Below are positions 20,781 to 40,091 of a DNA stretch of 64,000 nucleotides, piece by piece; positions within the stretch are counted from its first letter, which is position 1, and every line of letters begins with the position of its first letter. Origin of the DNA: Balneolales bacterium ANBcel1 (GTDB lineage Bacteria; Bacteroidota; Rhodothermia; Balneolales; Natronogracilivirgulaceae). Below the pieces are notes generated by a model. That model saw nothing but the letters and a program-made list of their open reading frames with translations, made no database searches and was not told the DNA's origin. The DNA lies in contig JARULB010000005.1 in NCBI GenBank assembly GCA_029688905.1, forward strand, positions 248,001 to 312,000. Direction: 5' to 3'. A program made the position numbers and the translations under genes.

Positions 20781-23297
20781 TCATTTGGCGGTAATCACGA
20801 TCCGGTCGCTCTGCAAGTCGCCGGATGCAGCCGTCAAAACGATCTCCCCGGATTCGCCGGCCGACTGCACAATCGCCAGAGCCTTGCCGTTGAACGCCTT
20901 GCGGTAATCAGCCTGAAACGGTTCGTGGCTGGTCGGGCTGCCGTTATCCACGGCAATAACCGAACCGGGTCCGTCGACATGAAACCGGATCAGATCATCG
21001 GCCCACGGCACCGGACGGCCTTTTTCATCAAGCACCTCCACCGTCACGAAGGATAGATCCCGTCCATCGGCTACAATCCTGTCCCTGTCTGCTGTCAGCC
21101 GCAGTTGCGCCGGGTCACCGGCCGTGTGGATTTCCACTATCCGCTCATGCGGCGCCGGACGGTTCCCGTTTTCGTCGGCGGAAGCTTGTCCGCCTGGCTG
21201 CGTTGCATCGGCTATTTCCGGCCCTCCGCTTTCAGATCCGCCTGGCTGATCGTATCTCCGGCCTACCGCACGAACCGTACCCGGCTCCCATGCAACCCGC
21301 CACATCAGGTGCATATCCCCCTCCACAAGCCGCTGCAGCCCCTGCGACTCATCATTGATGAACAGCTCAACTTCATCATAGTTTGTATATGCCCAGACAT
21401 CAATAATATCGCCATCCTCCCAGTTCCAATGCGGGAAAATGTGCAGCACCGGCTCTTCAGTCCAGACGCTCTTGTAGAGGTAGTAGGCATCCTTCGGAAA
21501 TCCGGCCAGATCCACAATACCGAAATAGGAGCTGCGTGACGGCCACCCGTACGGCGTCGGCTCACCCAGATAATCGAAACCGGTCCAGATAAACATCCCC
21601 GACAAGAAGTCGTGCTCCATGATCGGCCGGAGCGACTCCATATGGGTGGATCCCCAGGGGGTGCTCACGTTGTCGTAGGCGGATACGGTGTGATCCGGAT
21701 TCCCTCCGGTAAACGCCACCCGCCAGTCATAGGGCCATCGGCGGATGCTGTCGGAAGGCATGTCGTATTCACCGCGCGTAGCCAGCGCCGAGGTGGTTTC
21801 GGATGCGATAAACTTTTCGCCCGGAAAGGTTTTCGGAAAGTTTTCAAACTCCTCGTGTTCGTAGTTGTACCCGATCAGGTCCAGTTCGCCGGAGCGGATC
21901 ATATAGTTGTCAGGCTGCGGGTGATTGAGTCCGGCGGTAATCGGCCGCGTGTCATCCAGCTCCCGGACGATGCCGGCCAGATTGCGGGTGATTTCCACTC
22001 CGGTCGAATCCCACTGTTCCAGAATTTCGTTGCCGATGCTCCACATGATGACACTGGGGTGGTTCCGGTCACGCAGCACGAAATCGCGCAGGTCTCGCTC
22101 GTGCCACTCATCAAAATGGAGGTGATAGTCGTACTCGGCCTTTCCTTCGGCCCAGGCATCGAATATTTCATTTTGTATGATGAAGCCCATGCGATCGGCC
22201 AGCTCCAGCAGCTCCGGTGCCGGCGGGTTGTGTGCGGTTCGGATGGCGTTCACACCCATTCCCTGCATGATTTCCAGTTGCCGTTCGATGGCCCTGGTAT
22301 TGACCGCCGCTCCCAGTGCGCCAAGATCGTGGTGATTGCAGACCCCGCGAATCTTCACCGGCTCCCCGTTCAGGAAAAAGCCGTGTTCGGCGTCAAAGCG
22401 GAACTCCCGGATTCCGAAGGTTGTCTCGTACCGGTCCACAAGCGATTCCTCCAGATAGACTTCGGTCACGGCGGTGTATAAATTCGGCTCGGTATCCGAC
22501 CAGAGCCTGGGTTGCGGCACACGGATGTCCTGCATGGCGACTCCGGTTGCACCGGCATCCACCCGAAATGGTTCACCGGAGTAGTAAGCCGCCTGGCGGC
22601 CATCCGCATCCAGAATCCGTGTTGTGACCGACACGGACCCGGGGGCATCTCCCGCATTGCGGACGGTTGTCTCCTTGGCAACCAGCGCCTCAGCGGCGGC
22701 TATCTCCGGTGTGGTGATCCAGGTTCCCCGGTAATCCACGTGTACAGGTTCGGTTTGCACGAGCCGCACATTTCGGTAGATTCCCGATCCGCTGTACCAC
22801 CGGCTGTTGGGCTGGAGGGAGTTATCCACCCGCACCGCTACGACGTTTTCCCCTTCCCCGTAATTCAGATGGGGGGTCAGTTCATACCGGAATGAGATGT
22901 AGCCGTTCGGCCGGTTGCCCAGGTGCTCTCCGTTGATCCAGACATCGCTGTCCTGGTAGACCCCGTCAAACTCGATGAATACGGGTTTGCCGCGCCGGTT
23001 CTCATCCACGGTAAAGGTCTTGCGGTACCAGCCCACGCCACCCGGGAGTGCGCCTCCGCCCACCCCGGCCGGATGATCGGGACTAAACTCCCCCTCGATG
23101 CTCCAGTCGTGGGGCAGGTTCAGCCTGCGCCAGTCGCCGTCATCATAATCAGGCAGTTCGGCCCGGTCGGAGTCACCCAACTGAAACTTCCAGTCGTCAT
23201 TGAAATCCAGCACATGACGGCCGGGTTCCGGTTGGGAGCAGCCGGCATGCAGGATGACGGCGCTGCAGAGAAGCATCAGTAACAGAGGAGTGCGCAT
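20781..23297 (-). CDS. GH2 beta-galactosidase-type lipoprotein (PUL enzyme)
   Basis: 838 residues. A signal sequence with a likely lipidated Cys20 (ILHAGC) is followed by a jelly-roll sugar-binding domain (GVYQDSDVWINGEHLGN), an immunoglobulin-like domain and the (beta/alpha)8 barrel. The acid/base Glu424 is in SIGNEILEQ and the nucleophile Glu500 in FIASETTSA. DUF4982-like and bacterial Ig-like domains form the C-terminus. Residues about 683-717 are a Gly/Ser/Glu/Pro-rich stretch unlike the rest. In a xyloglucan locus the expected role is removing beta-galactose from xyloglucan oligosaccharides in the periplasm or at the membrane. GH2 also includes glucuronidases and mannosidases, so substrate is inferred from context. 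It is the last gene of the minus-strand PUL. Confidence 0.9.
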   Translation of the reverse strand: MRTPLLLMLLCSAVILHAGCSQPEPGRHVLDFNDDWKFQLGDSDRAELPDYDDGDWRRLNLPHDWSIEGEFSPDHPAGVGGGALPGGVGWYRKTFTVDENRRGKPVFIEFDGVYQDSDVWINGEHLGNRPNGYISFRYELTPHLNYGEGENVVAVRVDNSLQPNSRWYSGSGIYRNVRLVQTEPVHVDYRGTWITTPEIAAAEALVAKETTVRNAGDAPGSVSVTTRILDADGRQAAYYSGEPFRVDAGATGVAMQDIRVPQPRLWSDTEPNLYTAVTEVYLEESLVDRYETTFGIREFRFDAEHGFFLNGEPVKIRGVCNHHDLGALGAAVNTRAIERQLEIMQGMGVNAIRTAHNPPAPELLELADRMGFIIQNEIFDAWAEGKAEYDYHLHFDEWHERDLRDFVLRDRNHPSVIMWSIGNEILEQWDSTGVEITRNLAGIVRELDDTRPITAGLNHPQPDNYMIRSGELDLIGYNYEHEEFENFPKTFPGEKFIASETTSALATRGEYDMPSDSIRRWPYDWRVAFTGGNPDHTVSAYDNVSTPWGSTHMESLRPIMEHDFLSGMFIWTGFDYLGEPTPYGWPSRSSYFGIVDLAGFPKDAYYLYKSVWTEEPVLHIFPHWNWEDGDIIDVWAYTNYDEVELFINDESQGLQRLVEGDMHLMWRVAWEPGTVRAVGRRYDQPGGSESGGPEIADATQPGGQASADENGNRPAPHERIVEIHTAGDPAQLRLTADRDRIVADGRDLSFVTVEVLDEKGRPVPWADDLIRFHVDGPGSVIAVDNGSPTSHEPFQADYRKAFNGKALAIVQSAGESGEIVLTAASGDLQSDRIVITAK

Positions 23298-23340
23298 AGC
23301 GGACGGGGTATGGTCAGAGTGGGTTGATTGCCGGGCCGTT

Positions 23341-23399
23341 CCTGGGGTAAACGGGGTCGATCAGGTCGTTTTTCCCCAGGCCGTTCCTATTAAGAACGG
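23341..23399. repeat. Adjacent hairpins in the GH31-GH2 spacer
   Basis: CCTGGGG (23341-23347) can pair with CCCCAGG (23374-23380), and immediately after it CCGTTC (23381-23386) pairs with GAACGG (23394-23399). The short direct repeat GGCCGTTCCT occurs twice here. The 147-bp spacer between the GH31 stop-proximal end and the GH2 start could therefore fold in the mRNA and affect relative expression. Confidence 0.35.
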
Positions 23400-23444
23400 G
23401 GCCCGCCAGGTCGATTTATCGGGTCATTTCTGTGGCGGATGGAG

Positions 23445-25850
23445 TCAGAATGTGGTGATCTGCCACTGGACACGGCCTTCCAGCGGATCGGCTGCCAGCT
23501 CGAACCGATCCGTTTCCGTGCGGTTCAGCTGTATCGGGTGCAGCACATTATCCTCCGGCAGGCAGATGCGGCCTTCCACGGTGTCACCGTCTGCAGAAAA
23601 CACCACCAGCTCGATATCGGACCAATCGAGGTCGCGGGTGTGTTGTGCCAGGCCGATGTGCGGGATAACGGCTCCGTCGCGAACCAGCATGACCACCGGC
23701 AGGTCGCCCGCTTCTATATGATGCCATCCACCCTTGTACACGCTGCCTGTCTGATAGTCGATCCAGGCACCGGGCGGCAGGTAGACGTTGCGGGATTCGG
23801 CCTCGTCCTGCATCATGGGCGCAACCAGGATATCCGATCCGAACAGGTACTGATCCTCAACCAGCCAGGAACCGGGATCCTCCGGATATTCGATGAAGAG
23901 GGTCCGCAGCATGGGCAGCCCTTTTTCCGAACTCTCTTTGGCCTGCGCGTAGATATAGGGCATCAGGCGGTATCGCATTTCGGTAGCGGAACGGTAGAGG
24001 TTCAGGAAATCGTCACTGAACAGCCAGGGCTCTTTGGGCGCGTGGCCGTGGGAGCGGCTGTGTGAGGAGAGCATGCCAAAGGGCGTCCAGCGGCGGTACA
24101 GCTCTTCCGGGGTTTCCACCGGGAATCCGCCGATATCATGACTCCAGAAGGAGAAGCCGCTCAGACCGAACGAAAGTCCGCCCCGCAAGCTGGCCTCCAT
24201 CGCCGAGCTGCTGTTTCCAGCGTCGCCACCCCAGTGCACCGGATAGCGCTGGCTCCCGGCCCAGGTACTGCGGGCCCAGATAATATCCTCCCCGGAAATC
24301 TCCCGCGTGAGATCTCCCACGATTTTGTTGTACCGCAGCGGGTAGAGATTGTGCTCATACAAACCGGTGCGGCCGTTATGGTAGACACCCCACAGCGGTG
24401 CCGCTTCCCCAAAATCCACCTTGATAGCCCCAACGCCCATCTTGAGCAGGTCTGCAATTTTCTCCTCGTACCATGCAATCGCGTCGGGATTGGTGAAATC
24501 GAGGATGGCGTCCTCAAACGGCACATTCCCCTTGCCGTCCTTGATGTGCAGCCCTTTTTCGACGATCTCCTGATAGAGCAGGTTTTGAGGCACAAAATAG
24601 GGGAGCTGCCAGATGGAGGTCTTGAAGCCCATGTCATCCAGATCGGTGATCATGGCCGCGGGATCATCAAACCGGGATTCTGCAAAGATGAAGTCGTTGC
24701 GCCAGTCGGTCTCGAACCAGCCTGTATCCAGGTGAATCACATCACTGGGGATGCGATGCCGGCGCAGGTTGTCGGCTACTTCCCTGACTTCCTGCTCGGA
24801 AAAATAGGTGATCCGGCTCATCCAGAGGCCAAATGACCAAAGCGGAGGCATCGGAGATTTGCCGGTGAGCTCGGTGTACCCGTCCAGGATTTCCTTCGGC
24901 GATCCCATGAAGACGAACAGGTCCAGTTCATCGTCGGCGATCATCATGTTGTTGGTGGAGTGGTAGGAGTCGCCGATGTCGAAGGTCATCGGAGTGGACG
25001 AGTGGACAAACAGGCCGTAGCCCCGGTTGCTCATCAGAAACGGAATCGGCTTGTGCATATCCTTGTTCTGGCTGCCGTGTGAGTCATTGACCCAAAGGTT
25101 GAGTTTTTGTCCCCGTTTGTTCAGGCGCGTGAACGACTCTCCACCGCCGTAGATACGTTCGCCGGGCTCCAGATTGAAAACGGCCGCTACGCTGCGCGAG
25201 TAATCGTGGGCGCGGCGCACGAAAGAGAATGGGAGCACCGGGTTCAGTGTCGTCTCATTGTCCACCTGATGATTGGTTCCGGTGAGCAGCCGGCCGGCGG
25301 CATCGTGGAATTCCACCTTCCAGGGGTGTTCGTAGATAGTTACGCTGCCGAATTCGCTGCTGTAGCGATGTCCGCCCTCAATCGCCGAATAGCTCCAGGA
25401 GTTATCTGAGGGCGCTTCGCCATCCACCAGCATCAGAGATGGTTCCGGTGTGGCGACCTGTGGTCCGGTAGCCATGCGCAGGCGTACCGCACGCGGTGAC
25501 ACGAAATCGATTTTGAATGGATAGACCGGATCCACCGCATACTCTCCCAACGGGAATTCATTGGCTTCGCTTCGGCGCAGAACCGTGAGCATGTTGTTGA
25601 AGGCCTTTGCGGTACCATAATGGTGACGCAGCCATTCCACTTCACCTTTCCCGGTTTCCGGATCAAAACTCACCAGTCGATCGGCCAGGAAATAGTTGTT
25701 GGTGAAATCCTTGAAATCCCCGGAGATGTCGACGGTTTCGTTGAGGACGTTAGGCAGGGACTGGCTCATTGCGCGTTCGGTTGAAGTAGTTATGATACCC
25801 ATGAGCAGAAGTGCCGGTATCAGCAGAAAAGCGGTTTTTTGTACAGGCAT
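23445..25850 (-). CDS. GH31 alpha-xylosidase-type glycosidase (PUL enzyme)
   Basis: 801 residues from the Met at 25848-25850, which starts a clear signal peptide (MPVQKTAFLLIPALLLMGII); an upstream Met at 25937 adds an unlikely 29-residue extension. The N-terminal beta-sandwich of GH31 is followed by the barrel. The nucleophile Asp479 is in AIKVDFGE and the acid/base Asp543 in HWGGDAG. KVDFGE and RWTPFGMLSSHSRSHG resemble the YicI-type alpha-xylosidase group more than alpha-glucosidases. Expected function: release of xylose from the non-reducing end of xyloglucan oligosaccharides. It lies 116 bp downstream of the GH74 gene and upstream of GH2, and is likely co-transcribed with both. Confidence 0.9.
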   Translation of the reverse strand: MPVQKTAFLLIPALLLMGIITTSTERAMSQSLPNVLNETVDISGDFKDFTNNYFLADRLVSFDPETGKGEVEWLRHHYGTAKAFNNMLTVLRRSEANEFPLGEYAVDPVYPFKIDFVSPRAVRLRMATGPQVATPEPSLMLVDGEAPSDNSWSYSAIEGGHRYSSEFGSVTIYEHPWKVEFHDAAGRLLTGTNHQVDNETTLNPVLPFSFVRRAHDYSRSVAAVFNLEPGERIYGGGESFTRLNKRGQKLNLWVNDSHGSQNKDMHKPIPFLMSNRGYGLFVHSSTPMTFDIGDSYHSTNNMMIADDELDLFVFMGSPKEILDGYTELTGKSPMPPLWSFGLWMSRITYFSEQEVREVADNLRRHRIPSDVIHLDTGWFETDWRNDFIFAESRFDDPAAMITDLDDMGFKTSIWQLPYFVPQNLLYQEIVEKGLHIKDGKGNVPFEDAILDFTNPDAIAWYEEKIADLLKMGVGAIKVDFGEAAPLWGVYHNGRTGLYEHNLYPLRYNKIVGDLTREISGEDIIWARSTWAGSQRYPVHWGGDAGNSSSAMEASLRGGLSFGLSGFSFWSHDIGGFPVETPEELYRRWTPFGMLSSHSRSHGHAPKEPWLFSDDFLNLYRSATEMRYRLMPYIYAQAKESSEKGLPMLRTLFIEYPEDPGSWLVEDQYLFGSDILVAPMMQDEAESRNVYLPPGAWIDYQTGSVYKGGWHHIEAGDLPVVMLVRDGAVIPHIGLAQHTRDLDWSDIELVVFSADGDTVEGRICLPEDNVLHPIQLNRTETDRFELAADPLEGRVQWQITTF

Positions 25851-25966
25851 GGTTATGGCGTTGAAGGTTAATAGTTTTGGCGTCTTAAATGGTAAAAAAA
25901 ATAGATTCTCATGTGGATTGATACCCATTGCGATCATGGTTCCGTACCCTGTCGGCCTGCAGGGTA

Positions 25967-28516
25967 CTATTTAATATACATCATACTTCGAAACTTTCTG
26001 GCCGGACCCGCCTGCAGAACGCATATGTATACACCGCTTGACAAGCCGGTGGCGTCAAAAACGGAATGATGCAGCCCCGCGTCCTGCCTCTGGTCTACCA
26101 ACACACGGACCTGGCGTCCGAGCACGTCGAATACGCGGATCGTCACATGGGTTTCTGCCGGGAGCTCATAGGAAATCAAGGTGGACGGGTTGAACGGGTT
26201 GGGGTAATTTTGCCTCAAGCGGACGGCGGAGGCCACCGCCTCCGGCTGATCTGCCGAGACCACTTCATTTTCAAGGGCACCATAGACAATGCCCCGGCCG
26301 GCGGTACTCATGTAGACACGACCGAAGATGTTTGGATCCCCAATCACAAAATTGCCGTTACCGGGTCCGCCGTACTGATGCGCATCGTCATTGATCCTCA
26401 CCCAGCTGCTCCCCTCATCCACCGATCGGAAAAGACCGGTAATACCGCCCACTGTTCCCCAGATATAAACGGACGGGTAGTCATGGTCCGGTGCCGCACG
26501 TCCAAATCCAACCGCGGCGGCACGATCCACGCCGGCGACAGGCTCAAATTCCGCATCCGGGCCGGCGGATCGAACCAGGCCATTTGCCTCCAACGCAATC
26601 CACACATCCCCCTCGCGCTGTGGTGCGGTGCGAATCAGTGCGGAGCCGCCGGACGGCAGGGAAGATTTCACTGAAAACGAACTGCCGGCATCGCGGCTGA
26701 TCATCACATTCCCGTTAGACGGATTGTAGGCGTAGAAAATGGAGCCGTTGGCAGGATCCGATACCGGTATGGTTCGTGTGGATGCAAATCCGTCGGCCTG
26801 GGTCCAGGTCCTCCCCCGGTCGGTTGTACGGAAAATCCGGTTGCTGTTGGACGGCCTCCAGAGCACGGTTTCCCCGTCAGCTGCAACCGCCACCCTGCCC
26901 TGGTAGTAGGTCTGACCGTCTGGGAGTGATGCGAATGGGCTCCAACTCCGGCCCAAATCCGTTGAATAGTATATCGGGAAGTTGCTCCCGTTGCTGGTTC
27001 CACCGACCCTCACAACCATATTGCCACGTTTTTCGGCATGGTCCACCCCGGTTGAGGTGCCGATCTGCGGCTCGTGAATCGGGCTGTATTCGGTGACATC
27101 ATGATGCACAAACCCGTCATAGTCGCCGATTACCGATATAAGCGGACCGTTATAGATATTGGTGATATCCAGTGGAACCGTCTCCTCGATGCCCCTGACC
27201 GTAAACTTCCACGGATGTTCGCCCGGGGCGGCCGGATCGATATTTCCGGTCATAAAAATCCCGTTTCCGGAAGTGACCAGCACGCGATCGGTATTGCCGG
27301 GATCGAACTCGATGCTGCCCGCCCAGTGGATGGAATGGCCCTGAATCCAGGAAATGCCCTGGTCATCTTTTTGCAGGTCGACGCTGGTCCAGCCGGCACC
27401 GCGATCCTCCGAATAAAAAACCCGGTCACCCCAGGTGCCGTCGCCCTGGTCCATCCAGGTGTTTATGGTGGAGGCGACCATCCTGTCCGGGTTGGCCGGA
27501 TCCATGCTTATGCCGCCAAAGGCCCTTGATAATCCTGCCGGTGTGATGTCGCTCCAGCTGCGATCGTCGATATTCCAACTCCATATGCCACCGCTTTCAA
27601 CGGGCTCGGGAACATTCCAGTGGCCATGCGGACCGGCGCCGTCCCCGTAGGTAATCACCAGGTCTCCGTCTCCGCTCAAAGCTGCGCGTTGCGGCATGAA
27701 GCGGGTCGGGCGACCTTCCACCAGCTCCCAGCTCTCCCCGGCATCCTCCGATATATAGAGATTGTTGCCATGATAGCGGGTTCCACCGGCTTCCAGTTCC
27801 GCTACCGAAACACCCGCTATTATGCGCTGTGACCGCCCGTTTTCCTCCGTGCGTCCGTCGATCACCACAAAACTAATTCCGTTGTCGTTTGGTGTTTGTG
27901 ATACTTCCAGTGCGGACACATGCTCCCAGGAATCACCACGGTCCGTAGTCACAAACAGGCCGTCGCGCCGGGTTCCGGCATAGAGAATGTCTCCATTGTT
28001 CGGATCCACTGCCAGGCGTTCTCCGTTTTGCCTCCCCATCCCGTTACCGTGGGCCTTGAACTGTTGGGTCACATTGATTACGTCAAAGGTGTCGCCGAAG
28101 TTGTCGGAGCGCAGAAAAGCGGTATTGCCGTTGTTGAAGTAATCGATACCGGCCATCATGTAAACCCTGTTTGGGGATGACGGATCGATCGTCAGCGACT
28201 CGATTCCAAGCAGGCCTGTCTGATCCTCGGAAACCCAGTCGTTCAGGGGAATCCAGGTTTCGTCGCGGGGATTCCAGCGATAGGCCCCGCCGACATCGGT
28301 TCGTGCATACATGACACCATCGCCTTCGTGGGAGGTGACGATCGCCGTGACATAGCCCCCCCCTCCGATAGCCACACTGTTCCAGTGATAGACCTCTTCC
28401 GCGGGCAGGTCCGATGCCACCGACACCGCGGCAGTAAACGGCAGCGTCACAAACAGGAGAGGCAGCATCAAAAAACCAACTCGCAAAACATGTCCAAACA
28501 TAGAATAAAAGCTCAT
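25967..28516 (-). CDS. GH74 endo-xyloglucanase with T9SS sorting domain
   Basis: 849 residues: signal peptide to about residue 35, then tandem seven-bladed propellers of the GH74 type. The start YHWNSVAIGGGGYVTAIV followed by YARTDVGGAYRWN and WIPLNDW is the classical GH74 opening. Asp74 matches the general base; Asp465 in SVIGDYDGFVHHD is the candidate general acid. BNR motifs (STDLGRSW, TTDRGRTW) recur. The last 80 residues are a T9SS domain: LRQNYPNPFNPSTLISYEL, with LSSGVYICVL near the end. The predicted role is cutting the beta-1,4-glucan backbone of xyloglucan outside the cell. It is the first gene after the terminator that follows the SusCD-SGBP group. Confidence 0.93.
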   Translation of the reverse strand: MSFYSMFGHVLRVGFLMLPLLFVTLPFTAAVSVASDLPAEEVYHWNSVAIGGGGYVTAIVTSHEGDGVMYARTDVGGAYRWNPRDETWIPLNDWVSEDQTGLLGIESLTIDPSSPNRVYMMAGIDYFNNGNTAFLRSDNFGDTFDVINVTQQFKAHGNGMGRQNGERLAVDPNNGDILYAGTRRDGLFVTTDRGDSWEHVSALEVSQTPNDNGISFVVIDGRTEENGRSQRIIAGVSVAELEAGGTRYHGNNLYISEDAGESWELVEGRPTRFMPQRAALSGDGDLVITYGDGAGPHGHWNVPEPVESGGIWSWNIDDRSWSDITPAGLSRAFGGISMDPANPDRMVASTINTWMDQGDGTWGDRVFYSEDRGAGWTSVDLQKDDQGISWIQGHSIHWAGSIEFDPGNTDRVLVTSGNGIFMTGNIDPAAPGEHPWKFTVRGIEETVPLDITNIYNGPLISVIGDYDGFVHHDVTEYSPIHEPQIGTSTGVDHAEKRGNMVVRVGGTSNGSNFPIYYSTDLGRSWSPFASLPDGQTYYQGRVAVAADGETVLWRPSNSNRIFRTTDRGRTWTQADGFASTRTIPVSDPANGSIFYAYNPSNGNVMISRDAGSSFSVKSSLPSGGSALIRTAPQREGDVWIALEANGLVRSAGPDAEFEPVAGVDRAAAVGFGRAAPDHDYPSVYIWGTVGGITGLFRSVDEGSSWVRINDDAHQYGGPGNGNFVIGDPNIFGRVYMSTAGRGIVYGALENEVVSADQPEAVASAVRLRQNYPNPFNPSTLISYELPAETHVTIRVFDVLGRQVRVLVDQRQDAGLHHSVFDATGLSSGVYICVLQAGPARKFRSMMYIK

Positions 28517-28576
28517 TTACTGCGGTAATTATTCCGCCCGGAGTTCGGGCAGCTTGAAACAGACAACACCAAGATC

Positions 28577-28619: not shown

Positions 28620-28671
28620 GCGGAGGTCATACATGCCATGAATCATTCTGTCTGAAAACGGATCGGTGAAA

Positions 28672-29901
28672 TTAATCGGCTATGCGGACGATCCTCATGT
28701 GGTCGAACGCCACCAAAAGGCTCTCGACAAGATCATCTTCGCCCTCATTATCGTTGACAAACATTATGCCCATGGACTCGTCTGGAGTGTGCAGATCCCG
28801 GATACTTGCCGCCGATTGTCCGTAGCCGTTGTCTGTTCGGAACATGGACAGCGGGATGGTCACGGTAACCCATCCATCGGTAGTATACGCTCCTCCTGTA
28901 TCTTCCCAGGGCTCATAGCGGGCGATATAGTCCCAGTCGTCATGAATCCTAATCAAAAACGTGCCGTATGCCAGCGGATCCTTAATATATATGTCAAACT
29001 TGAGCGCCCAGTCTTGAAGCGGGTCATCCAGGTGCTCTTCTTCCATCCAGCGGAGCGAAACCAGGTTCACCGAGCGGGTATCCTCCCACCACGCCCAGTT
29101 GCCAGGTGTGATATTCCCTGTCTGCATATAGCCGTAGGACCCGATACTTCCGGGAAACAGGTCCGGGTCATCGCTGACGAGGGCGCCCCACTCGTAGTTG
29201 TTCACATCATCAAAATCATTCAGCATGCCTGTGTAATCATTAAACGGGCTGGATGGGGGCGTCGCCACCTCTTCATTCACCGTTTCCACCGTTATCGCGC
29301 CACCTTCGGTGACTCCGTCCGGAACCACCAGGTCGACCCAGCTCCCGTTGTCGGACGGAGTAAAGTCCGCGGCGGAGATGCCGCCGGGAAAACGTACATC
29401 CAGGATCAGGAACAGTGACTGACCGTACAGCCGGATTTGATCGCCTGCCTGGCCAAACTCCCTGGTCAGATGCGACAGGGACGGCGGGGGCGGCACAATG
29501 GGAAAATCAAAGACGAATTCCCCTTTATCCGAAACCACTTTAATGGTATTCATCTCATCAGACTCCGGATCAAGTTCCATGAAATTGATATCCGGGACGG
29601 TGATGATCATGTTCGTTTTGGTCACAAACACCGGATTGAAAGAGGCGCCCACACCGTTGAAGAACACGGCTTCCACGCGATCCAGGTTATTTCCCTGAAT
29701 CACGAAGATTTCGCCCGGACCCAGTTGCTCAAGCTGGCGAACCGCGGCGGTATCCGGGTGCATGTACCTCACACTGGTAATTTCCGGGATACGATCGTCG
29801 TCGCTACCGAACAACCCGCACGAAGTACTCAGCAGGCCCAGCAAAACGGCCATCGCAATGGCGATCGGCGAATGGCAGGAAATGTTTTTCTTTGAATTCA
29901 T
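28672..29901 (-). CDS. Surface glycan-binding lipoprotein (SGBP, IPT domain)
   Basis: 409 residues. The lipoprotein signal ends at about Cys28 (LLSTSCGLFG). Two IPT/TIG-type immunoglobulin-like domains follow (about 38-120 and 120-205; GPGEIFVIQGNNLDRVEAVFF, GQAGDQIRLYGQSLF). The C-terminal half (about 215-409) is an aromatic-rich beta-sandwich with NWAWWEDTRSVNLVSLRW and WDYIARYEPWEDTGGAY, like the xyloglucan-binding domain of SGBP-B proteins. It occupies the SusE/F-like position after susD. The expected role is holding polysaccharide at the cell surface for the SusCD pair. Xyloglucan as ligand comes from the neighbouring enzymes and from my recollection of the family. Confidence 0.85.
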   Translation of the reverse strand: MNSKKNISCHSPIAIAMAVLLGLLSTSCGLFGSDDDRIPEITSVRYMHPDTAAVRQLEQLGPGEIFVIQGNNLDRVEAVFFNGVGASFNPVFVTKTNMIITVPDINFMELDPESDEMNTIKVVSDKGEFVFDFPIVPPPPSLSHLTREFGQAGDQIRLYGQSLFLILDVRFPGGISAADFTPSDNGSWVDLVVPDGVTEGGAITVETVNEEVATPPSSPFNDYTGMLNDFDDVNNYEWGALVSDDPDLFPGSIGSYGYMQTGNITPGNWAWWEDTRSVNLVSLRWMEEEHLDDPLQDWALKFDIYIKDPLAYGTFLIRIHDDWDYIARYEPWEDTGGAYTTDGWVTVTIPLSMFRTDNGYGQSAASIRDLHTPDESMGIMFVNDNEGEDDLVESLLVAFDHMRIVRIAD

Positions 29902-29963: not shown

Positions 29964-31559
29964 TCAGAAGTTAAATGGGACAGGCTCATCCATGAAGATC
30001 GGGTTGGCCGTCATTTCTGCTTCGGGGTAATGAAGCCTGAAGTCGCTTTCGTTGGGAATCACCGGTGCGGCAGGCGGTTCCTCCTCATATCCGTCTGCCC
30101 GGGTGAAGGTGAAATTGGCATTGCGCCGCTGCTCCTCTACAATCGAAATGGCTTTCTGGGGCTGCCAGTTAAACAATCTCACCAGCTCGTACCAGTTCTG
30201 GCCCTCAAACGCGAGCTCTTTCCACTTTTCCTCGAACAGATCCATGTAACTGAAAGAAGAGACGGGATCCAGTCCGGCCCGCTCCCTCACCTTGTTGAAG
30301 AGGCTTACGGCCCTGGCATCGCTGGTGGAAGCGTTGTTACCGAGGGTCGCCTGGGCGTACGTCAGGTACACTTCCGCCAGCCGCAGCATATAGGTATTGA
30401 TATCTGTTTCCATGAAGCCCACATTACCGTTATTGTCACCTGCGGTACCGATCACATATTTTTTGATGGGTGCCATGCTGCCCTGATAGGTGTAGCCCCC
30501 TTCCGCCTGCAGCAGTTCGGGATAGTGATCTCCATCCAGCATAAAAGAGGCCTTTCGCCGTTCGTCTGCGGAATCCGCTCCGCCATAGAGCTCAAACAGC
30601 CAGGCCGAAGCGCTGGTGCCGCCTCCCCATCCGTCACCGGCACCTGTGAGTCGCGCTTCAACGGCATAATAGGCCTGGGTGCTGTTATGGGTACCCCATT
30701 CACTTGCGCCATAAACCCACTGCAGGGCAAACAGGCTCTCGGAATTGTTGTTGTTGGCGCGGAAAAAGAGCTGGGCGTAGTCATCCATCAGCCGTACGCC
30801 GCTGTTGTCGATTACCTCCAGGGCATACTGACGGGCCAGCTCCAGATCGCTTTCCACCAGTGCGCCGCCACCGCTGTCGAAATGGGCGCGGGTGAGATAC
30901 AGCCGGGCGAGCATTCCTTTTGCGGCCCATTCATCCACCCGTCCTGCCGGATCGTTGAGCTGCAGGTTTTCGGCGGCAAACTCCAGGTCGTTGATGGCGA
31001 ACTGCAGGACATCCTCCCTGTGATTACGGTTCTGATTGGGCTGTTCCAGCAGATCACGGGTACTTGTGATGATGGGTACCTCGCCCCAGAGCGAGGCCAG
31101 GTAATAGTAGGCGACACCCCGCATGAAGCGGGCCTCGGCAATACGATGATCCCTGACGACTTCCGGGATATCATCGGACGCCTTTTCGGTGATGTTGGCG
31201 ATCTGGATATTGGCGTTGGTAACTACCAGATAGAGAGACCGCCAGAGTTCGTTGAGCCGGGTATTGGCGGAGTTGGTGCTGAAGATAACGAACTGTTCGC
31301 GTCCCCCGTCGTTGGTGATCATGTTTCCGGCCCGTGCATCTCCGATCTCCATTTTGGCCTTGTCGTTGAAGTCAAACCAGACGATGTTGTAGAGTGGCCC
31401 GGTAGCCATGGCCAGATCTTGTTCCGTCTGGTAGAAGTTGTCTTCAACGATCTGATCCTGCGGTGGCCGATCGAAAAAACTCTCGCCGCAACCGTACAGC
31501 ACCGGCATGCTTACAAGTAATCCTGCCAGCAGATAGCGAATAGATCTTTGCTTAGTCAT
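29964..31559 (-). CDS. susD: SusD/RagB-type glycan-binding lipoprotein
   Basis: 531 residues from MTKQRSIRYLLAGLL; the Met at 31604 would overlap susC and break the lipoprotein signal, so I reject it. The signal ends at Cys24 (VLYGCGESFFD), followed by the usual SusD start DRPPQDQIVEDNFYQTEQD. TPR-like helices (ARFMRGVAYYYLASLWGEVPI, EWAAKGMLARLYL) and the C-terminal RagB region (LNEL, KVRERAGLDP, ELAFEGQNWYELVRLF) are clear. It forms the lid of the SusC transporter and binds oligosaccharide at the cell surface. It starts 25 bp after the susC stop, so the two are co-transcribed. The symbol denotes family, not the starch substrate. Confidence 0.95.
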   Translation of the reverse strand: MTKQRSIRYLLAGLLVSMPVLYGCGESFFDRPPQDQIVEDNFYQTEQDLAMATGPLYNIVWFDFNDKAKMEIGDARAGNMITNDGGREQFVIFSTNSANTRLNELWRSLYLVVTNANIQIANITEKASDDIPEVVRDHRIAEARFMRGVAYYYLASLWGEVPIITSTRDLLEQPNQNRNHREDVLQFAINDLEFAAENLQLNDPAGRVDEWAAKGMLARLYLTRAHFDSGGGALVESDLELARQYALEVIDNSGVRLMDDYAQLFFRANNNNSESLFALQWVYGASEWGTHNSTQAYYAVEARLTGAGDGWGGGTSASAWLFELYGGADSADERRKASFMLDGDHYPELLQAEGGYTYQGSMAPIKKYVIGTAGDNNGNVGFMETDINTYMLRLAEVYLTYAQATLGNNASTSDARAVSLFNKVRERAGLDPVSSFSYMDLFEEKWKELAFEGQNWYELVRLFNWQPQKAISIVEEQRRNANFTFTRADGYEEEPPAAPVIPNESDFRLHYPEAEMTANPIFMDEPVPFNF

Positions 31560-31584
31560 AATTAATTTATTTCGAATACACGGG

Positions 31585-34500
31585 TTACAAGCCAACACTG
31601 ACACCTACGGTGAATATGCGTGGTGAAGGATATCTTCCACGATCCACGCCGAGCAGCAGAGGATCGGGGTTGTTCATTTGAGCGCCGATTTCCGGATCAT
31701 AACCGGAGTATTTTGTAAATGTATAGAGGTTTTGCACGCTGCCATAGACCCTCATGGTGCGCATTCCCAGACTGTTCAGAACACTTTGCGGCATGCGGTA
31801 CCCAATGGTTACATTCTGAATTCTGAGATAGCTTCCATCTTCCACGAACCGGTCGGAGATACGCTGGTTGTTGTTCGGGTCGGAGGATGTGATTCGCGGG
31901 ACATCGGTATCGGGATTGGATACATAGACGTTGTCGACATCATTGATATCGCCCTCGGGGTCGATCATCTCCACCCGTGCGTGGTCATTGATGGTTGCCA
32001 GGAGTCCGAAGTTGCTGGCAGGGTCTTCATTAATCCTGCGGAGCTGATTAAAGACATCGTTTCCGTAGGTACCGTTGATGAAAATGGAGAGATCGAAATT
32101 CCGGTAATAGAAATCGTTGGTAATACCAAACTGGAAATCGGGATTGGGATCTCCGATAATGGTACGGTCGTTTTCATCGATAACGCCATCGCCGTTGAGA
32201 TCCTTGAACTTCAGATCTCCGGGCCACACGCCGTTGGTCCGGCTGATATTGGCATGCTGGGTCGCGTGATTGCGGATATCGTCGGCATCCTCAAATACGC
32301 CTTCCACCACATATCCGTAGAACGTGCCGACGGGCTGACCTACGATGGTACGTGAGACCGGATCGAAGAAATCGATGTTCCTTTCGATGAAGCTCGTCTC
32401 CTGGTCCATGGCGGTAACCTGGTTCCGGTTTCTGGTGTAGATGAACCGGGACTCCCAGCGCAGTGACCGGTCGATATTGACCGTACTCAGGGCCACTTCA
32501 ATGCCCCTGTTTTCCAGAGACCCGATATTCACCATCGGAGCACCGATGGAGCCGATTCCCGAGGTTCCCGAGTAGAGCGGCAACGGCTGCTGAAGCAGCA
32601 GATCGCGGGTCCATTGCATATACGTGTCCGCCGTCAGACTGATGCGCTGGTTGAAAATACTCAGATCCAGGCCGACGTTGATGGATTCGGTCGATTCCCA
32701 TTTCAGATCCGGATTGGCTAGATTACCCGGTCGCACTCCGCTTCCCCAGGCGGTGGCGGTCACCAGCAGTGCGGAACCAAACAGGTAGTTACCGATCTCC
32801 TGGTTTCCCACGAAACCGTAGCCGACTCGAAGCTTCAGCTCATCTACGGAATCAAGCGTAAAGAACCGTTCGCTTGATATGCGCCATGCCCCGGCAAAAG
32901 AGGGGAACACGCCCCAGCGGTTATCCGCCCCGAATCGGGATGAGCCGTCCACGCGTATGGAGCCGGTCAACAGGTAGCGGTTATCGTAATCCAGGTTAAC
33001 TCTTGAGAACACTGATTGAATGGAGTTGGAGCCGGCCCAGCTGTTGTTGGCCATGGTTTCGGCATCGCCTGCGGCCAGTTCAGGTACATTGTTGCCCGGA
33101 AAATTCTGACGGCTGCCGCTCAGTCCGTCAAACTCAAACACCTCTGCCTCGTATCCGGCCATGACATCCATGCGGACCACATCGGCAAACGTGTCGTTAT
33201 AGTCCACAAAGCCGCGTGCCTGCCAAAACTTCCCAACGCTTTTTGACCGGGAGGAGGAGTTGATCTGGTTGACACGGGCGTTGAACTCATACGTTGGCGT
33301 AAACTGGGCCTGATTGGCCAGGTTGTACGCGCCGCTGAACTCCGTGCGGACGGACAGGCTTCTGCTCAGCCGGATTCTTGCAAAAACATTTCCCTGCATT
33401 TCGGCTCGCTCCTGTGTGTTATCCATGATTCGGGCCATGGCCACGGGGTTTTCAAGGGTGAACTCCGACTGATCCGGACCTCCCCAGGATCCGTCGGGTG
33501 ACCGCACCGGAATATCGGGCGATTGTCTGATGGCGAGATTGACCAGGTCGGCATCCGAAACGGTCAGTCGCTCATCCGTACGGCTGACATTGAGACTGGT
33601 GCCGACATCCAGCCATTCCACCGGGGTGTTGTCCAGGTTCAGGCGCACCGAGTATCTGTTGAAGCGGGATCCTACCGCGATGCCGTCCTGGTCGAAGTAC
33701 CCCAGAGACAACCGGTACCGGGTAATTTCATCTCCGCCGCTCACAGAAAGGTTGTGTTCGTGCATGGGCGCGAAGCCGAAAAGCTCGTCCTGCCAGTTGG
33801 TTCCTTCCCCGAGGATGGATGGATCCATGAACTCGGCCCGGTGCCCGAATCCGGCAATATCGGCGCGCAGGTTATGAAACTCCGCGTATTCTCTCAGATT
33901 GAGCACACTAACCGAACCGGGAAGATGCTGCACGCCATAACTGCCGTCATAGTCCACGTTGGTTTCTCCCGCACGTCCGCGTTTGGTAGTAACGAGAATG
34001 ACCCCATTTGCCGCACGTGCGCCGTAAATAGCTGCAGCAGATGCGTCTTTGAGCACATCAATGGACTCAATATCCGACGGGTTCAGCGTTGCAAGCGGGT
34101 TGGTCGAGTTGCTGGCCTCTCCGGAAAGCGGCACGCCGTCTACCACATAAAGCGGCTCTGCCCCGCCTGTAAGAGTATTGGTACCCCGAATACGCACCGA
34201 GGTGCCCCCGCCAGGCTGACCGGAATTGGAAAGCACCATGACGCCGGCTGCCCGTCCCTGAAGTGCTCTTTCAAACAATCCGCTCCGCGACACCTGAAGA
34301 TCTTCGGAGCTGATGGAGGCCACCGAACCGGTTAAATCCCGGCGCCGCGCATCTCCATAGCCGATAAGCACAATTTCATCTCCAACCAGAAAGCTGTAGG
34401 TCATTTCCACATCGATCTCGCTGCGCCCCAGCACGGGAATTTCCAGTCTGTCAAAACCCAAATAGGAAAAAACGAGCGTATCTTCCGGGGATGGCACGTT

Positions 34501-35079
34501 CACAGAATAACGCCCCTGCATATCTGTGACATCACCGGTGGATGTGCCCTTCACCACCACATTGACGCCCGGAAGCGCTTCCCTGCGTTCGCTGTCAACA
34601 ACCTGACCGGTTACGGTTATGCCCTGCCGGGCTTGAACCGTCTCTTCTGCGGTATGGGCAATCGGACGAATAATGATTTGTCCGTTCGCCGATGCCAGCG
34701 CCTCGACCTGATACTCACTCATCAGGGATTGCAGTAAATCCACTACCTTGACATTGGTTTTGGCCATGGTAATCCGGGCATAGGGAAGCTGATCCCTGTC
34801 GTAGGTCAGGCGGGCCGAAGATTTTTCACTGATCCTTGTCAGCAGTTCATCCATGGAAGCGTTTTGAACAAATATGTCGATCCGCTCTTCATAGATGTCA
34901 TTGACCTCCGGATCGTATGCAAACCATTCCAGGGGTACGTAGTTTTGCGCCGTATGGCCGGTTGTGGCAAAGCTTTGTGCGTGAACCTGCACCGGCAGTA
35001 CACATAACAAGACGCCTGCCATACACCCGATTACACCCCACACCCACCTGCCGCGCCTGATTCTGGTATCATTATGCAT
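31585..35079 (-). CDS. susC: SusC/RagA-type TonB-dependent transporter with STN domain
   Basis: 1164 residues. A signal peptide to about residue 35 is followed by a secretin/TonB short N-terminal (STN) domain (about 50-115), then a carboxypeptidase-regulatory-like domain (about 150-235, ITVTGQVVDSERREALPGVNVVV). The SusC-type plug follows (about 245-370, RIRGTNTLTGGAEPLYVVDGV, KDASAAAIYGARAANGVILVTTKR). The long barrel ends RIFTVGVSVGL. It imports oligosaccharides across the outer membrane with SusD. The STN domain is the part that contacts FecR-type anti-sigma factors, and fecR lies only 31 bp upstream, which supports signalling from substrate occupancy to the sigma factor. The symbol denotes family only. 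Confidence 0.96.
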   Translation of the reverse strand: MHNDTRIRRGRWVWGVIGCMAGVLLCVLPVQVHAQSFATTGHTAQNYVPLEWFAYDPEVNDIYEERIDIFVQNASMDELLTRISEKSSARLTYDRDQLPYARITMAKTNVKVVDLLQSLMSEYQVEALASANGQIIIRPIAHTAEETVQARQGITVTGQVVDSERREALPGVNVVVKGTSTGDVTDMQGRYSVNVPSPEDTLVFSYLGFDRLEIPVLGRSEIDVEMTYSFLVGDEIVLIGYGDARRRDLTGSVASISSEDLQVSRSGLFERALQGRAAGVMVLSNSGQPGGGTSVRIRGTNTLTGGAEPLYVVDGVPLSGEASNSTNPLATLNPSDIESIDVLKDASAAAIYGARAANGVILVTTKRGRAGETNVDYDGSYGVQHLPGSVSVLNLREYAEFHNLRADIAGFGHRAEFMDPSILGEGTNWQDELFGFAPMHEHNLSVSGGDEITRYRLSLGYFDQDGIAVGSRFNRYSVRLNLDNTPVEWLDVGTSLNVSRTDERLTVSDADLVNLAIRQSPDIPVRSPDGSWGGPDQSEFTLENPVAMARIMDNTQERAEMQGNVFARIRLSRSLSVRTEFSGAYNLANQAQFTPTYEFNARVNQINSSSRSKSVGKFWQARGFVDYNDTFADVVRMDVMAGYEAEVFEFDGLSGSRQNFPGNNVPELAAGDAETMANNSWAGSNSIQSVFSRVNLDYDNRYLLTGSIRVDGSSRFGADNRWGVFPSFAGAWRISSERFFTLDSVDELKLRVGYGFVGNQEIGNYLFGSALLVTATAWGSGVRPGNLANPDLKWESTESINVGLDLSIFNQRISLTADTYMQWTRDLLLQQPLPLYSGTSGIGSIGAPMVNIGSLENRGIEVALSTVNIDRSLRWESRFIYTRNRNQVTAMDQETSFIERNIDFFDPVSRTIVGQPVGTFYGYVVEGVFEDADDIRNHATQHANISRTNGVWPGDLKFKDLNGDGVIDENDRTIIGDPNPDFQFGITNDFYYRNFDLSIFINGTYGNDVFNQLRRINEDPASNFGLLATINDHARVEMIDPEGDINDVDNVYVSNPDTDVPRITSSDPNNNQRISDRFVEDGSYLRIQNVTIGYRMPQSVLNSLGMRTMRVYGSVQNLYTFTKYSGYDPEIGAQMNNPDPLLLGVDRGRYPSPRIFTVGVSVGL

Positions 35080-35110
35080 AGTTATGGTCGTTCATTTACA
35101 GTTGGACAAA

Positions 35111-36172
35111 TTATTCGGTAAAGTAAAATGATCCGTTTTTCTCGGTAAAACTTATGTTGAGGGTCAGGCTAACCGCCTCAATCACCTCTCTGACCGGCTG
35201 GTTTTGCCGGAAAGACGATGTCAGCTTTTTTTCATACAGCTCCGGCTTTTCAGGGTCTATCTCTATGCTGATGTTGTACCAGCGCTGCAACTCCAGGGCT
35301 ACCCGGTCCAGCGGCTCCTGCTGAAATACCAGCTCCCCCTCAATCCAGCCAAGATATTTCGACATATCGGAGAGTTCGCTTACTTCGACAACACCCTCGG
35401 GCGTGTATATCCCCAGATGATTTCCGGAAATTCTGGCCGGTACTGCTGCATCATCCCTTCTGCCCTCAAGCGATACGACGCCGGAAATTACCGCCACGGA
35501 GACAAAGTCGTCTTCGGGATAGGAAGAGACGTTAAATCGGGTACCCAGTACACGTGTGATGGTTTTTTCCGTTTTTACGATAAAGGTTTTGCCGGGCTCC
35601 GGCTCCACCTCAAAAAAGGCTTCCCCCTCGAGTTCCACCACCCGATCTTCCAGACCGCGGAAGGATTCCGGCAGAACCAGGCGGCTGCCCGGTTTCAGTA
35701 TAGCCCGGCTGCCATCGGAAAGGGTCAGCCTGGTACGGCTCCCCGGCTGCGCAAAAAACTCCTTGTAGGTGACCTCCGTGACTTCTTCGCGGACGGGCTC
35801 GTCTTCCACATTGTATAGAAACAAAGCGGCCATGGCAACGAAGAGAATGGAGGCGGCCGCAGCAATCCAGCGGTAGCGACTGTTCCCGGCCCTCAGCCTC
35901 CTGCTCAAAAGCTCACTGCTCGTGCCGATGAGGGGCTTTCGCCGGGTATCGACCTCCGGGTGCTTTTTCCTGAAGCGCTCCCACGCCGCATCGGCGTCCC
36001 ACTCTCCCCTCTCTTCAGCCGGCAGGGCATAAATTCGTTTCACAAATGCGAGGCGTTCACTGTTCTCCGGATCCTTCTGAATCCACTCCTCCGTTTTCCG
36101 GAGCTCTTCACCGGACATTTCACCGTTGACGTAGCGGATCAGGTCATTCCAATGGATGTCTTTTTCGTTCAT
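35111..36172 (-). CDS. FecR-type anti-sigma factor
   Basis: 353 residues. A cytoplasmic N-terminal part (LIRYVNGEMSGEELRKTEEW) is followed by one transmembrane helix at about 102-121 (WIAAAASILFVAMAALFLYN), a periplasmic FecR domain (TRLTLSDGSRAILKPGSRL, VELEGEAFFEVEP, GTRFNVSSYPED) and a DUF4974-type STN-like C-terminal domain (LELQRWYNISIEI). It would hold the ECF sigma factor inactive and release it when the SusC STN domain signals. It lies between the sigma gene and susC on the same strand. Confidence 0.93.
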   Translation of the reverse strand: MNEKDIHWNDLIRYVNGEMSGEELRKTEEWIQKDPENSERLAFVKRIYALPAEERGEWDADAAWERFRKKHPEVDTRRKPLIGTSSELLSRRLRAGNSRYRWIAAAASILFVAMAALFLYNVEDEPVREEVTEVTYKEFFAQPGSRTRLTLSDGSRAILKPGSRLVLPESFRGLEDRVVELEGEAFFEVEPEPGKTFIVKTEKTITRVLGTRFNVSSYPEDDFVSVAVISGVVSLEGRRDDAAVPARISGNHLGIYTPEGVVEVSELSDMSKYLGWIEGELVFQQEPLDRVALELQRWYNISIEIDPEKPELYEKKLTSSFRQNQPVREVIEAVSLTLNISFTEKNGSFYFTE

Positions 36173-37063: not shown

Positions 37064-37249
37064 TTCGATTACAACAAAGGTGCACCCCGACAAATGTGTA
37101 AGCTGCTATTACCCTCCGAACAGACAATTTTCGGATCATCCCAAGTAAAATCAAGTTAAATTGAACCGGACTTGTAAACATTTCATCAGGTGTCTGAACA
37201 GTGCATTCCGGCAACGGACAGCGACAGCGGTTGTGAAATCTTTTCGACA

Positions 37250-37286
37250 AGAAAAAACCGGCACGGACATCACATCCGTACCGGTT
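37250..37286 (-). terminator. Terminator-like hairpin upstream of the sigma gene
   Basis: AACCGGCACGGA (37256-37267) and TCCGTACCGGTT (37275-37286) form a 12-bp stem with one mismatch around a 7-nt loop. On the minus strand it is followed by a T run (A residues 37252-37257). It points toward the sigma gene, which starts 187 bp further on, and no minus-strand gene lies upstream of it. It may be an attenuator in the sigma-gene leader or a relic. Confidence 0.6.
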
Positions 37287-37479
37287 GGCTCTGTGTATGG
37301 TACATGCGAATCGGAGGTGCTTTTGCGCTACCAACCTGCTTTTGCCTGTTCATCCTCCCGAGCGACCCGGCCCCCGGTTTCCTGCAGTTATTTTCTGTAC
37401 CCCGTTTTTGCCGAACACCCCCACAATGTTTTTTATTTGAATATCAGAAACCCTTAATATCGTTGAACTACAACAATTT

Positions 37480-37543
37480 GGGAAAATTTTCCCGTCAGAG
37501 AACCGCCCAGTGATTTGTGCTTTTGCATCTTGTTCGTAATTTG
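37480..37543 (+). promoter_or_regulatory. Putative promoter and palindromic site for GH95 gene
   Basis: A perfect 14-bp palindrome GGGAAAATTTTCCC (37480-37493) precedes TTTG (37514-37517), a 19-bp spacer and TAATTTG (37537-37543). This resembles the Bacteroidota TTTG/TAnnTTTG promoter except for one missing base in the -7 box. It lies about 155 bp before the GH95 start. Confidence 0.35.
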
Positions 37544-37697
37544 ACTGGCGGTACTCCGGTCATGTCCGGGGCGGGTTTATCAAGCCGGGGTACCATTACC
37601 GAATCGGTCCGGGACGGGATCGTGCAGTTCAGATATTATCCGCCGGAAAGACCTCTTCACCCCGGGGATCGCCGGGCGTTTTCCACTACCTAAACTG

Positions 37698-40091
37698 ATG
37701 ATCATGCCGAATGAAAAGCTTGTTCCAGTCAGCGCCATCGTGTGTTCCTTTTTTTCTCTTTGCCTCTTTGCCTCCTGCGGTCATATCTCTGCCAGGGAAG
37801 CGGATCCTCTGCCCCTGAAGCTGTGGTATGACCAACCGGCCGCCGACTGGAATGAAGCGCTCCCGGTGGGCAACGGGCGGTTGGGTGCGATGGTTTTCGG
37901 GCGGATCGGATTGGAACGGATTCAGGTCAATGAAGAGTCGCTCTGGGGCGGCAGCAACGTAAACAACAACAATCCCGGAGCTTCTGAAAACCTGCCTGAG
38001 ATACGCCGCCTGATCCTGGACGGTGACATCCCGAAAGCCAAGATACTGGCCGAAGAACATCTGCTGGGCGATCCCTGGGTGGACAACTCCTACCGCACCC
38101 TTGGGGATATTTTTATCGATTTCGGCCACGACGACACCACCGCCGTAACCGCGTATCATCGGGAACTTGACCTGAGAAAAGGTGTCGCCAGCGTATCCTA
38201 CGAAACCCCGCAGGGCGTGTATGCCTACGAAATGTTCTCCTCCGCCCCGGATGATGTGATGGTCCTCCATATGACAACCACGGCACCGGACGGATTCCAG
38301 AATACCACCATTGCCCTGACCAGGGTCGAACACACATTCGTTGATGCCATGAGTGGCGGCCTTACAATGATAGGGCGAATAATTGACGATGAGGCCTCCG
38401 GTCACGGTCCGGCGGGCGCCCACATGCGGTTTGCCTCCCGGCTGGAGGTGTCCGGCTACGACGGCATCCTCACGCAGAACAGCAACACGCTGGTTCTGAA
38501 CGGCGGGCATTCCGCCACACTGCTTTTCAGCGCCGCCACCAACTACGACCTGCCGTCTATGGATTTCGATCGCGGCATAGACCCCCACCAGCGGTCCATG
38601 GATCTTGTCGCCAAAGCCTCTGAGTACAGCTACCAGGAACTCAAATCACGGCATGTAGACGATCATCTGCCGATAATGGATCGGGTCACCATTGACCTGG
38701 GCGGACACGAACGCGACTCCATTCCAACCGGCCGGCGTCTTTCCGAACTTCAGCAAGGTGCCAGCGACCCCGCCCTCAAAGCGCTCTATTTCCAGTTCGG
38801 CCGCTACCTGCTGATGGGCAGCTCCCGGGCTCCCGGTGTTCTTCCGGCCAATCTTCAGGGTATCTGGAACGAGCACATCTGGGCTCCATGGGGGTCCGAT
38901 TACCACGTGAACATTAACATCCAGATGAACTACTGGCCCGCCAATGTCACCAACCTGGACGAAACGGTGTCCCCGCTGGGTGATTTCATGTCGGCGATAA
39001 CGGTGCCCGGCGCAGTGACCGCCCGCGACATGTACGGTGCCGGCGGATGGGCCATGCACCACACCACCGATGTCTTCGGCAAAACCGGTGTCATGGACGG
39101 AATCCACTGGGGGATGTTTCCCCTGGGCGGGGCATGGATGATGTTTCCCCTGTACCGGCATTATGAGTACACGCTGGACACCGACTGGCTTCTCAACCGG
39201 GCCTACCCCGTCATGCGCGGCAGCGCGGAGTTCATCCTGGATTTTCTTGTGGAGGACGACGAAGGCCGACTGGTAACCGTGCCCTCATATTCCCCCGAAA
39301 ACAGCTATATCCTGCCTGAAACCGGAGAAGAGTACCGCATCACCTACGGTCCCACCATGGATATCCAGATCATCCGTGAACTGTTCGGCTACATCCTGGA
39401 TGTGGCCGACAACACCGGAGAAGAGGACGCGTTCCTGGACCGGCTGCGATCTGCCCTGGAGCGCCTGCCGGAGGTACGGATCGGTGCCAATGGCACCATA
39501 ATGGAGTGGATTGAGGATTATGACGAAGCCGAACCCGGTCATCGCCACATATCCCATCTGCTCGGACTTCATCCCGGCACCCATATCACCCGCGATACCC
39601 CGGAGATGTTCGAAGCCGCACGCCGAACCATCGAACGGCGCTTTGAACACGGCGGTGGTCATACCGGATGGAGCATGGCCTGGATCATCAACTTCTACGC
39701 CCGCCTCCTGGATGCGGAAGCCGCGCATCACCATTTCCGCCTGCTGCTGGAACAGTCCACTTTGCCCAACCTGTTCGATACGCATCCACCTTTCCAGATA
39801 GACGGCAATTTCGGCGGTACAGCTGCCGTTGCCGAAATGCTCCTTCAAAGCCACCTGGGGTACATTCAGTTGCTCCCCGCGCTGCCGGAAGCCTGGAGCA
39901 CCGGCCGGGTCACCGGACTCAAGGCCCGGGGCAACTTCGAGATTGACATCGCCTGGGAAGAGCAGCAACTGACCGAAGTGCGCGTCATCTCCCATTCCGG
40001 CCGGCCACTCACCCTGGAATACAACGGACAGCGAGTTGAGCAGGAAACCACCACCGGTGAAATCCTTATTTTTGGCCCCGGACTGCGATGA
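37698..40091 (+). CDS. GH95 alpha-L-fucosidase-type lipoprotein
   Basis: 797 residues. A signal sequence ends near Cys27 (LFASCGHI), suggesting a lipoprotein. The GH95 N-terminal domain is clear: LKLWYDQPAADWNEALPVGNGRLGAMVFG and IQVNEESLWGG in part. The (alpha/alpha)6 barrel carries NIQMNYWPANVTNL near residue 407, PSYSPENSY near residue 534 (the Glu is the candidate general acid) and IDGNFGGTAAVAEML near the C-terminal side. The family comprises alpha-1,2-L-fucosidases and a few alpha-galactosidases. Next to GH74/GH31/GH2 it most likely removes fucose from xyloglucan side chains. It is divergent from the PUL operon, with 634 bp between the starts. Confidence 0.9.
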   Translation: MIMPNEKLVPVSAIVCSFFSLCLFASCGHISAREADPLPLKLWYDQPAADWNEALPVGNGRLGAMVFGRIGLERIQVNEESLWGGSNVNNNNPGASENLPEIRRLILDGDIPKAKILAEEHLLGDPWVDNSYRTLGDIFIDFGHDDTTAVTAYHRELDLRKGVASVSYETPQGVYAYEMFSSAPDDVMVLHMTTTAPDGFQNTTIALTRVEHTFVDAMSGGLTMIGRIIDDEASGHGPAGAHMRFASRLEVSGYDGILTQNSNTLVLNGGHSATLLFSAATNYDLPSMDFDRGIDPHQRSMDLVAKASEYSYQELKSRHVDDHLPIMDRVTIDLGGHERDSIPTGRRLSELQQGASDPALKALYFQFGRYLLMGSSRAPGVLPANLQGIWNEHIWAPWGSDYHVNINIQMNYWPANVTNLDETVSPLGDFMSAITVPGAVTARDMYGAGGWAMHHTTDVFGKTGVMDGIHWGMFPLGGAWMMFPLYRHYEYTLDTDWLLNRAYPVMRGSAEFILDFLVEDDEGRLVTVPSYSPENSYILPETGEEYRITYGPTMDIQIIRELFGYILDVADNTGEEDAFLDRLRSALERLPEVRIGANGTIMEWIEDYDEAEPGHRHISHLLGLHPGTHITRDTPEMFEAARRTIERRFEHGGGHTGWSMAWIINFYARLLDAEAAHHHFRLLLEQSTLPNLFDTHPPFQIDGNFGGTAAVAEMLLQSHLGYIQLLPALPEAWSTGRVTGLKARGNFEIDIAWEEQQLTEVRVISHSGRPLTLEYNGQRVEQETTTGEILIFGPGLR

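Follow-up and report, generated by a model that had tools for sequence, protein, structure and literature searches.

According to the initial annotation, the xyloglucan utilization locus (XyGUL) of Bacteroides ovatus is controlled by a hybrid two-component system. Like the locus reported here, it encodes SusC, SusD/SGBP-A, SGBP-B, GH31, and GH2 proteins, but it differs by its GH5 and GH9 endo-enzymes, by the GH3 and GH43 genes that it includes, and by its PA14-type GH31 (PMC4967831). In Xanthomonas citri, GH74, GH31, and GH95 genes are gathered in one XyGUL with TonB-dependent transporters (TBDTs), as in our locus; however, this XyGUL also comprises a GH35, a CE20 esterase, and two TBDTs (PMC8245568), it is devoid of SusD (XusD; PMC11892949), and its GH31 possesses an accessory domain with W328 that is missing from ours (PMC8245568). 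The Xanthomonas study reported no similar organization among the Bacteroidetes in PULDB (PMC8245568). The Cellvibrio japonicus cluster shares with our locus GH95, GH31, β-galactosidase, and TBDT genes, as well as a β-glucosidase encoded elsewhere, but has a GH35 instead of a GH2 and endo-enzymes outside the locus (PMC5816542), and it also lacks SusD (PMC11892949). The "XyGUL-like" clusters of Flavobacterium (PMC11892949; L059 and L151 in our set) carry related SusCD and SGBP-B genes (SusD 42% identical) contiguous with GH74 and GH2 genes. Unlike our locus, they contain GH5, a LacZ-type GH2, GH29, and GH97, their SusC has no N-terminal extension, and GH31 and GH95 were absent from the stretch read. 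One Flavobacterium cluster with GH74 was not induced by xyloglucan (PMC11892949), which weighs against a xyloglucan reading of our locus. A genome of our phylum set (G025) shares 92% identity with F. johnsoniae CI04 across 5 kb, which indirectly places the window genome in the Bacteroidota.

The nine genes found at positions 20781–40091 of the window, the 64,000-nt stretch of Balneolales bacterium ANBcel1 DNA analyzed here, very probably constitute a xyloglucan utilization locus, judging from their predicted products. This interval encloses precisely nine intact ORFs. They were identified by Pfam, NCBIfam, and PDB sequence searches, and the predicted family identities are far beyond chance. 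The minus strand encodes, in this order, an ECF sigma factor of the Bacteroidota family TIGR02985 (36494–37093; Pfam and NCBIfam), a FecR-type anti-sigma factor (35111–36172; PF04773, PF16344), a SusC TBDT with an N-terminal STN-like extension (31585–35079; TIGR04056 at 884 bits, Plug, CarbopepD_reg_2), a SusD/SGBP-A lipoprotein (29964–31604; PF14322/PF07980), an SGBP-B surface glycan-binding lipoprotein (28672–29901; PF18329, E = 2e-26; PDB 3orj, 5e7g), a GH74 with a T9SS C-terminal sorting domain (25967–28516; Por_Secre_tail), a GH31 (23445–25937; PF01055, E = 8e-88), and a GH2 (20781–23297; PF18565/PF02836/PF02837, DUF4982 and C5 domains; PDB 7cwd, E = 4e-209). A GH95, predicted to be an α-1,2-L-fucosidase, is encoded divergently on the plus strand (37698–40091; PF22124, E = 2e-167). 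The gaps from FecR to GH2 do not exceed 155 bases, whereas 321 bases separate ECF from FecR and 604 bases ECF from GH95, a spacing consistent with a single operon and a divergent GH95 gene. Translations read by eye show lipobox-like ends on SusD, SGBP-B, GH2, and GH95. Each of the genes named in the initial annotation (SusC, SusD, glycan-binding lipoprotein, GH74, GH31, GH2, divergent GH95, ECF sigma, and FecR) was thus found in its place and confirmed by these searches. Elsewhere in the window, a GH26 family protein, probably a β-mannanase, is encoded outside the xyloglucan locus (59861–61141, minus strand; PF02156, E = 3e-50), two methyl-accepting chemotaxis proteins are encoded on the plus strand (50379–51989 and 61669–63405), and two long plus-strand ORFs (893–1882 and 46045–47916) gave no Pfam hit, even with E values as high as 1 allowed.

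All nine genes recur in G400, a genome that belongs to the same GTDB family but to a different genus, which argues that their grouping is not due to chance. Together with the family matches, this recurrence supports the coherent xyloglucan set, with GH74 as endo-enzyme, that had been proposed from the sequence. In the G400 locus (L017), the order from ECF to GH2 is the same as in the window, the ECF gene being truncated at the edge of the fetched stretch. Identities between the two loci are lowest for FecR (36%) and highest for GH31 (80%), with 54% for GH74 and 69% for GH95. The L017 GH95 gene lies at the GH2 end, in convergent orientation, next to a glutamate dehydrogenase gene whose product is 74% identical to the one encoded at 8402–9763 of the window. 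In the simplest reading, the set would have been inherited at a single chromosomal place and GH95 relocated, with 11 kb of other genes between the dehydrogenase and GH2 genes in the window. A TonB receptor, a DUF4876 protein, a DUF6850 protein, and a BNR/T9SS protein are encoded there in a row (12396–20411, minus strand) and are missing from this place in L017.

GH74 is the strongest pointer to xyloglucan as the substrate. Its best PDB matches form the GH74 set that includes characterized endo-xyloglucanases, with 6p2l at the top (E = 8.5e-169). Residues D74 and D465, presumably the catalytic Asp pair, are invariant in the alignment. No long insert was seen by eye at the exo-loop site in the alignment with 6p2l, the GH74 of N. 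koreensis (PMC8245568). The processive Trp pair at subsites +3/+5 corresponds to W347-W348 in PoXEG74 (PMC10317168); at the putative Trp-pair region, located by eye, the window GH74 has a single Trp (INTWMD) followed by Met. Alongside the T9SS C-terminal signal of GH74, the genome encodes SprA. GH74 was found in 5 of the 395 phylum genomes and in 2 of the 147 relatives. In the GH74 phylogeny, the window and G400 proteins form a pair with a support of 100 on a branch of their own, the deeper placement of which is weakly supported. The tree therefore does not support GH74 as a recent acquisition from a named genus, and separate acquisitions by the two loci were rejected on the same grounds, despite the lower identity of GH74 (54%) compared with GH31 (80%).

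SusD, whose likely start is the ATG at 31559, is closest among PDB proteins to the B. ovatus xyloglucan SGBP-A BACOVA_02651 (E = 1.5e-103 vs. 9e-26 for the next protein). The BoSGBP-A numbering was assigned by matching the expected Trp positions to the sequence. W306, which we take to be a binding residue of BoSGBP-A, is kept in the window SusD. Among the binding residues W82 and W283 of BoSGBP-A (PMC9599597), W283 is kept and W82 is lost. SGBP-B carries the Pfam xyloglucan-binding domain PF18329. However, SGBP-Bs encoded elsewhere, among them those of GH9/GH5 loci, match this domain as well, and the domain name was rejected as proof of substrate. The window SGBP-B displays the motif YEPW, and YxPW is also present in 3orj. 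This aromatic motif is kept in the SGBP-Bs of the window, L017, L059, L020, and L022; the position reads NPF in L018, L024, L025, and L027. The N-terminal segment of the window SusC has no match to the STN domain, which exceeds the cut-off only in the SusC homolog of L019.

A search with the window SusD identified homologs in 10 of the 147 relatives. Within the order, the partners of the SusCD/SGBP-B core are GH9 and GH5 (L024) or GH9 (L022), and no glycosidase was identified among the neighbors scanned in L018. Across the phylum, the related cores of L146 and L147 adjoin GH9 and GH31 genes along with one for a hybrid two-component regulator, and L146 additionally encodes a GH2 that is 54% identical to that of the window. 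The core of L150, whose SusD is 41% identical, adjoins a GH10 and probably belongs to a xylan locus; SusD similarity was for this reason also rejected as proof of substrate. As related cores are joined to GH74, GH9, or GH5, the substrate cannot be read from the core by itself. A literature search on Balneolaceae and SusD returned nothing. Proteins of 592–618 aa without Pfam match, possibly glycan-binding, are encoded beside SGBP-B in L018 (16067–17920), L022 (15963–17738), and L147 (11989–13764). In L020, several FG-GAP/ASPIC-UnbV proteins are encoded in a row, together with a 3-keto-disaccharide hydrolase, by the SusCD core (3994–15669), and in L009 (genome G211), otherwise a close relative (71%), one in-frame TAA interrupts the SusD match.

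The ECF and FecR genes adjoin the SusC gene, as expected from the proposed ECF sigma/FecR control. However, among the stretches from the order, all six that extend over the upstream flank (L019, L021, L023, L024, L026, and L028) contain FecR, and four of them an ECF. This type of control is therefore a trait of the lineage and not a mark of the GH74 design, as it had been taken to be.

GH31, in which a signal peptide was read by eye, matches 5f7c (439 bits), which we take to be BT_0339, then YicI (391 bits) and BoGH31A (143 bits). The YicI residues that we take to be C307-F308 read T-G in the window enzyme. Its score with the NCBIfam α-xylosidase model PRK10658 is below the cut-off (523 vs. 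606 bits), and Pfam detects no PA14 domain. The "α-xylosidase-like motifs" noticed initially are thus those of the YicI/BT_0339 branch, to which GH31 belongs on sequence grounds, and not those of the PA14-containing type that characterizes the B. ovatus and Cellvibrio xyloglucan enzymes (PMC4967831). An α-xylosidase activity is likely for this predicted enzyme.

GH2 exceeds the NCBIfam GalB cut-off, ends its signal with a lipobox-like LHAGC, and is predicted to remove β-1,2-linked galactose. GH95, whose signal ends with LFASC, has as nearest structure 7kmq, which we take to be XacAfc95, the X. citri xyloglucan fucosidase; the catalytic NIN, SPEN, and QIDGNFGG motifs are kept in the alignment to 7kmq and 4ufc. 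The residue (His) at the −1 subsite was considered as a test of fucose versus L-galactose specificity and dropped, as the T395H variant of XacAfc95 indicates that this polymorphic residue is not diagnostic (PMC8245568). The genome encodes a xylose isomerase and GH5 and GH9 enzymes. As initially noted, GH3 and GH43 are missing from the window genes scanned, yet seven GH3 matches are found in the whole genome. No fucose isomerase that would account for fucose use was found by the genome search, which counts against the xyloglucan reading. The MR/MLE enzyme encoded at 2612–3832 is of the ManD type, and its assignment as a fuconate dehydratase is unsupported.

From these identities and retained residues, we infer the following substrate, localization, order of steps, and signaling. 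GH74 would leave the cell through the type IX system and cut the xyloglucan backbone outside. The SGBP-B and SusD lipoproteins would hold chains and oligosaccharides, which SusC would import. GH95 would take off fucose, GH2 galactose, and GH31 the xylose of the non-reducing end, these steps being probably membrane-associated or periplasmic. The backbone glucan might be finished by the GH3 β-glucosidases encoded elsewhere, and xylose would be directed to the xylose isomerase. Passage of the ligand through SusC may, via the STN-like extension, free the ECF sigma factor from FecR and turn the operon on.

This xyloglucan reading is weakened by the occurrence of SusCD/SGBP-B of the same type with GH9/GH5 and of a 41% identical SusD by a GH10, as well as by the non-PA14 GH31 scoring below the PRK10658 cut-off, with T-G at YicI C307-F308, and by the SusD without W82. 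The locus might instead serve wider β-1,4-glucans, such as cellulose fragments or mixed-linkage glucan, GH74 being one endo-glucanase and the debranching enzymes acting on mixed oligosaccharides. Some GH74 enzymes, like Xgh74A of R. cellulolyticum, are indeed also active on soluble cellulose (PMC4780118), and the same SusCD-SGBP-B-FecR core has GH9 and GH5 instead in other members of the order. However, Pfam detects neither GH9 nor GH5 in the window locus, GH95 and GH2 best suit a chain whose decorations include galactose and possibly fucose, and SGBP-B reads YEPW where that of the GH9/GH5 locus L024 reads NPF; we consider this broader specificity very improbable.

Alternatives that retain xyloglucan as the substrate concern single enzymes. 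GH31 could be an α-glucosidase or another housekeeping enzyme recruited into the operon, as 5f7c is labeled an α-glucosidase and GH31 orthologs stand alone in several members of the order and of the class. This is unlikely, since GH31 lies inside the operon, is the best-kept protein between the two loci, and has an ortholog adjoining a GH2 (55%) in G143 (L129); in addition, the pathway needs the removal of xylose and the locus has no second GH31. It is equally unlikely that the locus is devoted to non-fucosylated (galacto)xyloglucan, with GH95 acting on L-galactose or another glycan. GH95 is kept in both genomes and is nearest to a presumed xyloglucan fucosidase, but its divergent orientation here and its position at the other end in L017 make it less tied to the operon, and the missing fucose isomerase points the same way.

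The initial annotation viewed the locus as distinct in design from the B. ovatus XyGUL, though aimed at the same substrate. The xyloglucan locus is in fact known as a kind, since GH74, GH31, and GH95 are united in Xanthomonas (PMC8245568) and GH74 occurs in SusCD clusters of Flavobacterium (PMC11892949); what makes this one a variant is how its genes are arranged, along with its deep-branching GH74 and its type of GH31. With slightly less than even confidence, we suggest a family-restricted locus in which a GH74-GH31-GH2-GH95 set was joined to a SusCD/FecR core associated with GH9/GH5 in other members of the order, with GH74 branching deeply and a YicI/BT_0339-type GH31 taking over the debranching that the PA14 type performs in other loci. 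It adds a Bacteroidota SusCD locus uniting GH74, GH31, GH2, and GH95, an organization for which the PULDB search of the 2021 Xanthomonas study returned no example (PMC8245568). Its GH31 provides a test case for whether the debranching of xyloglucan oligosaccharides needs PA14, and the comparison of loci indicates that related SusCD/SGBP-B cores combine with different endo-enzymes, namely GH74, GH9, and GH5.
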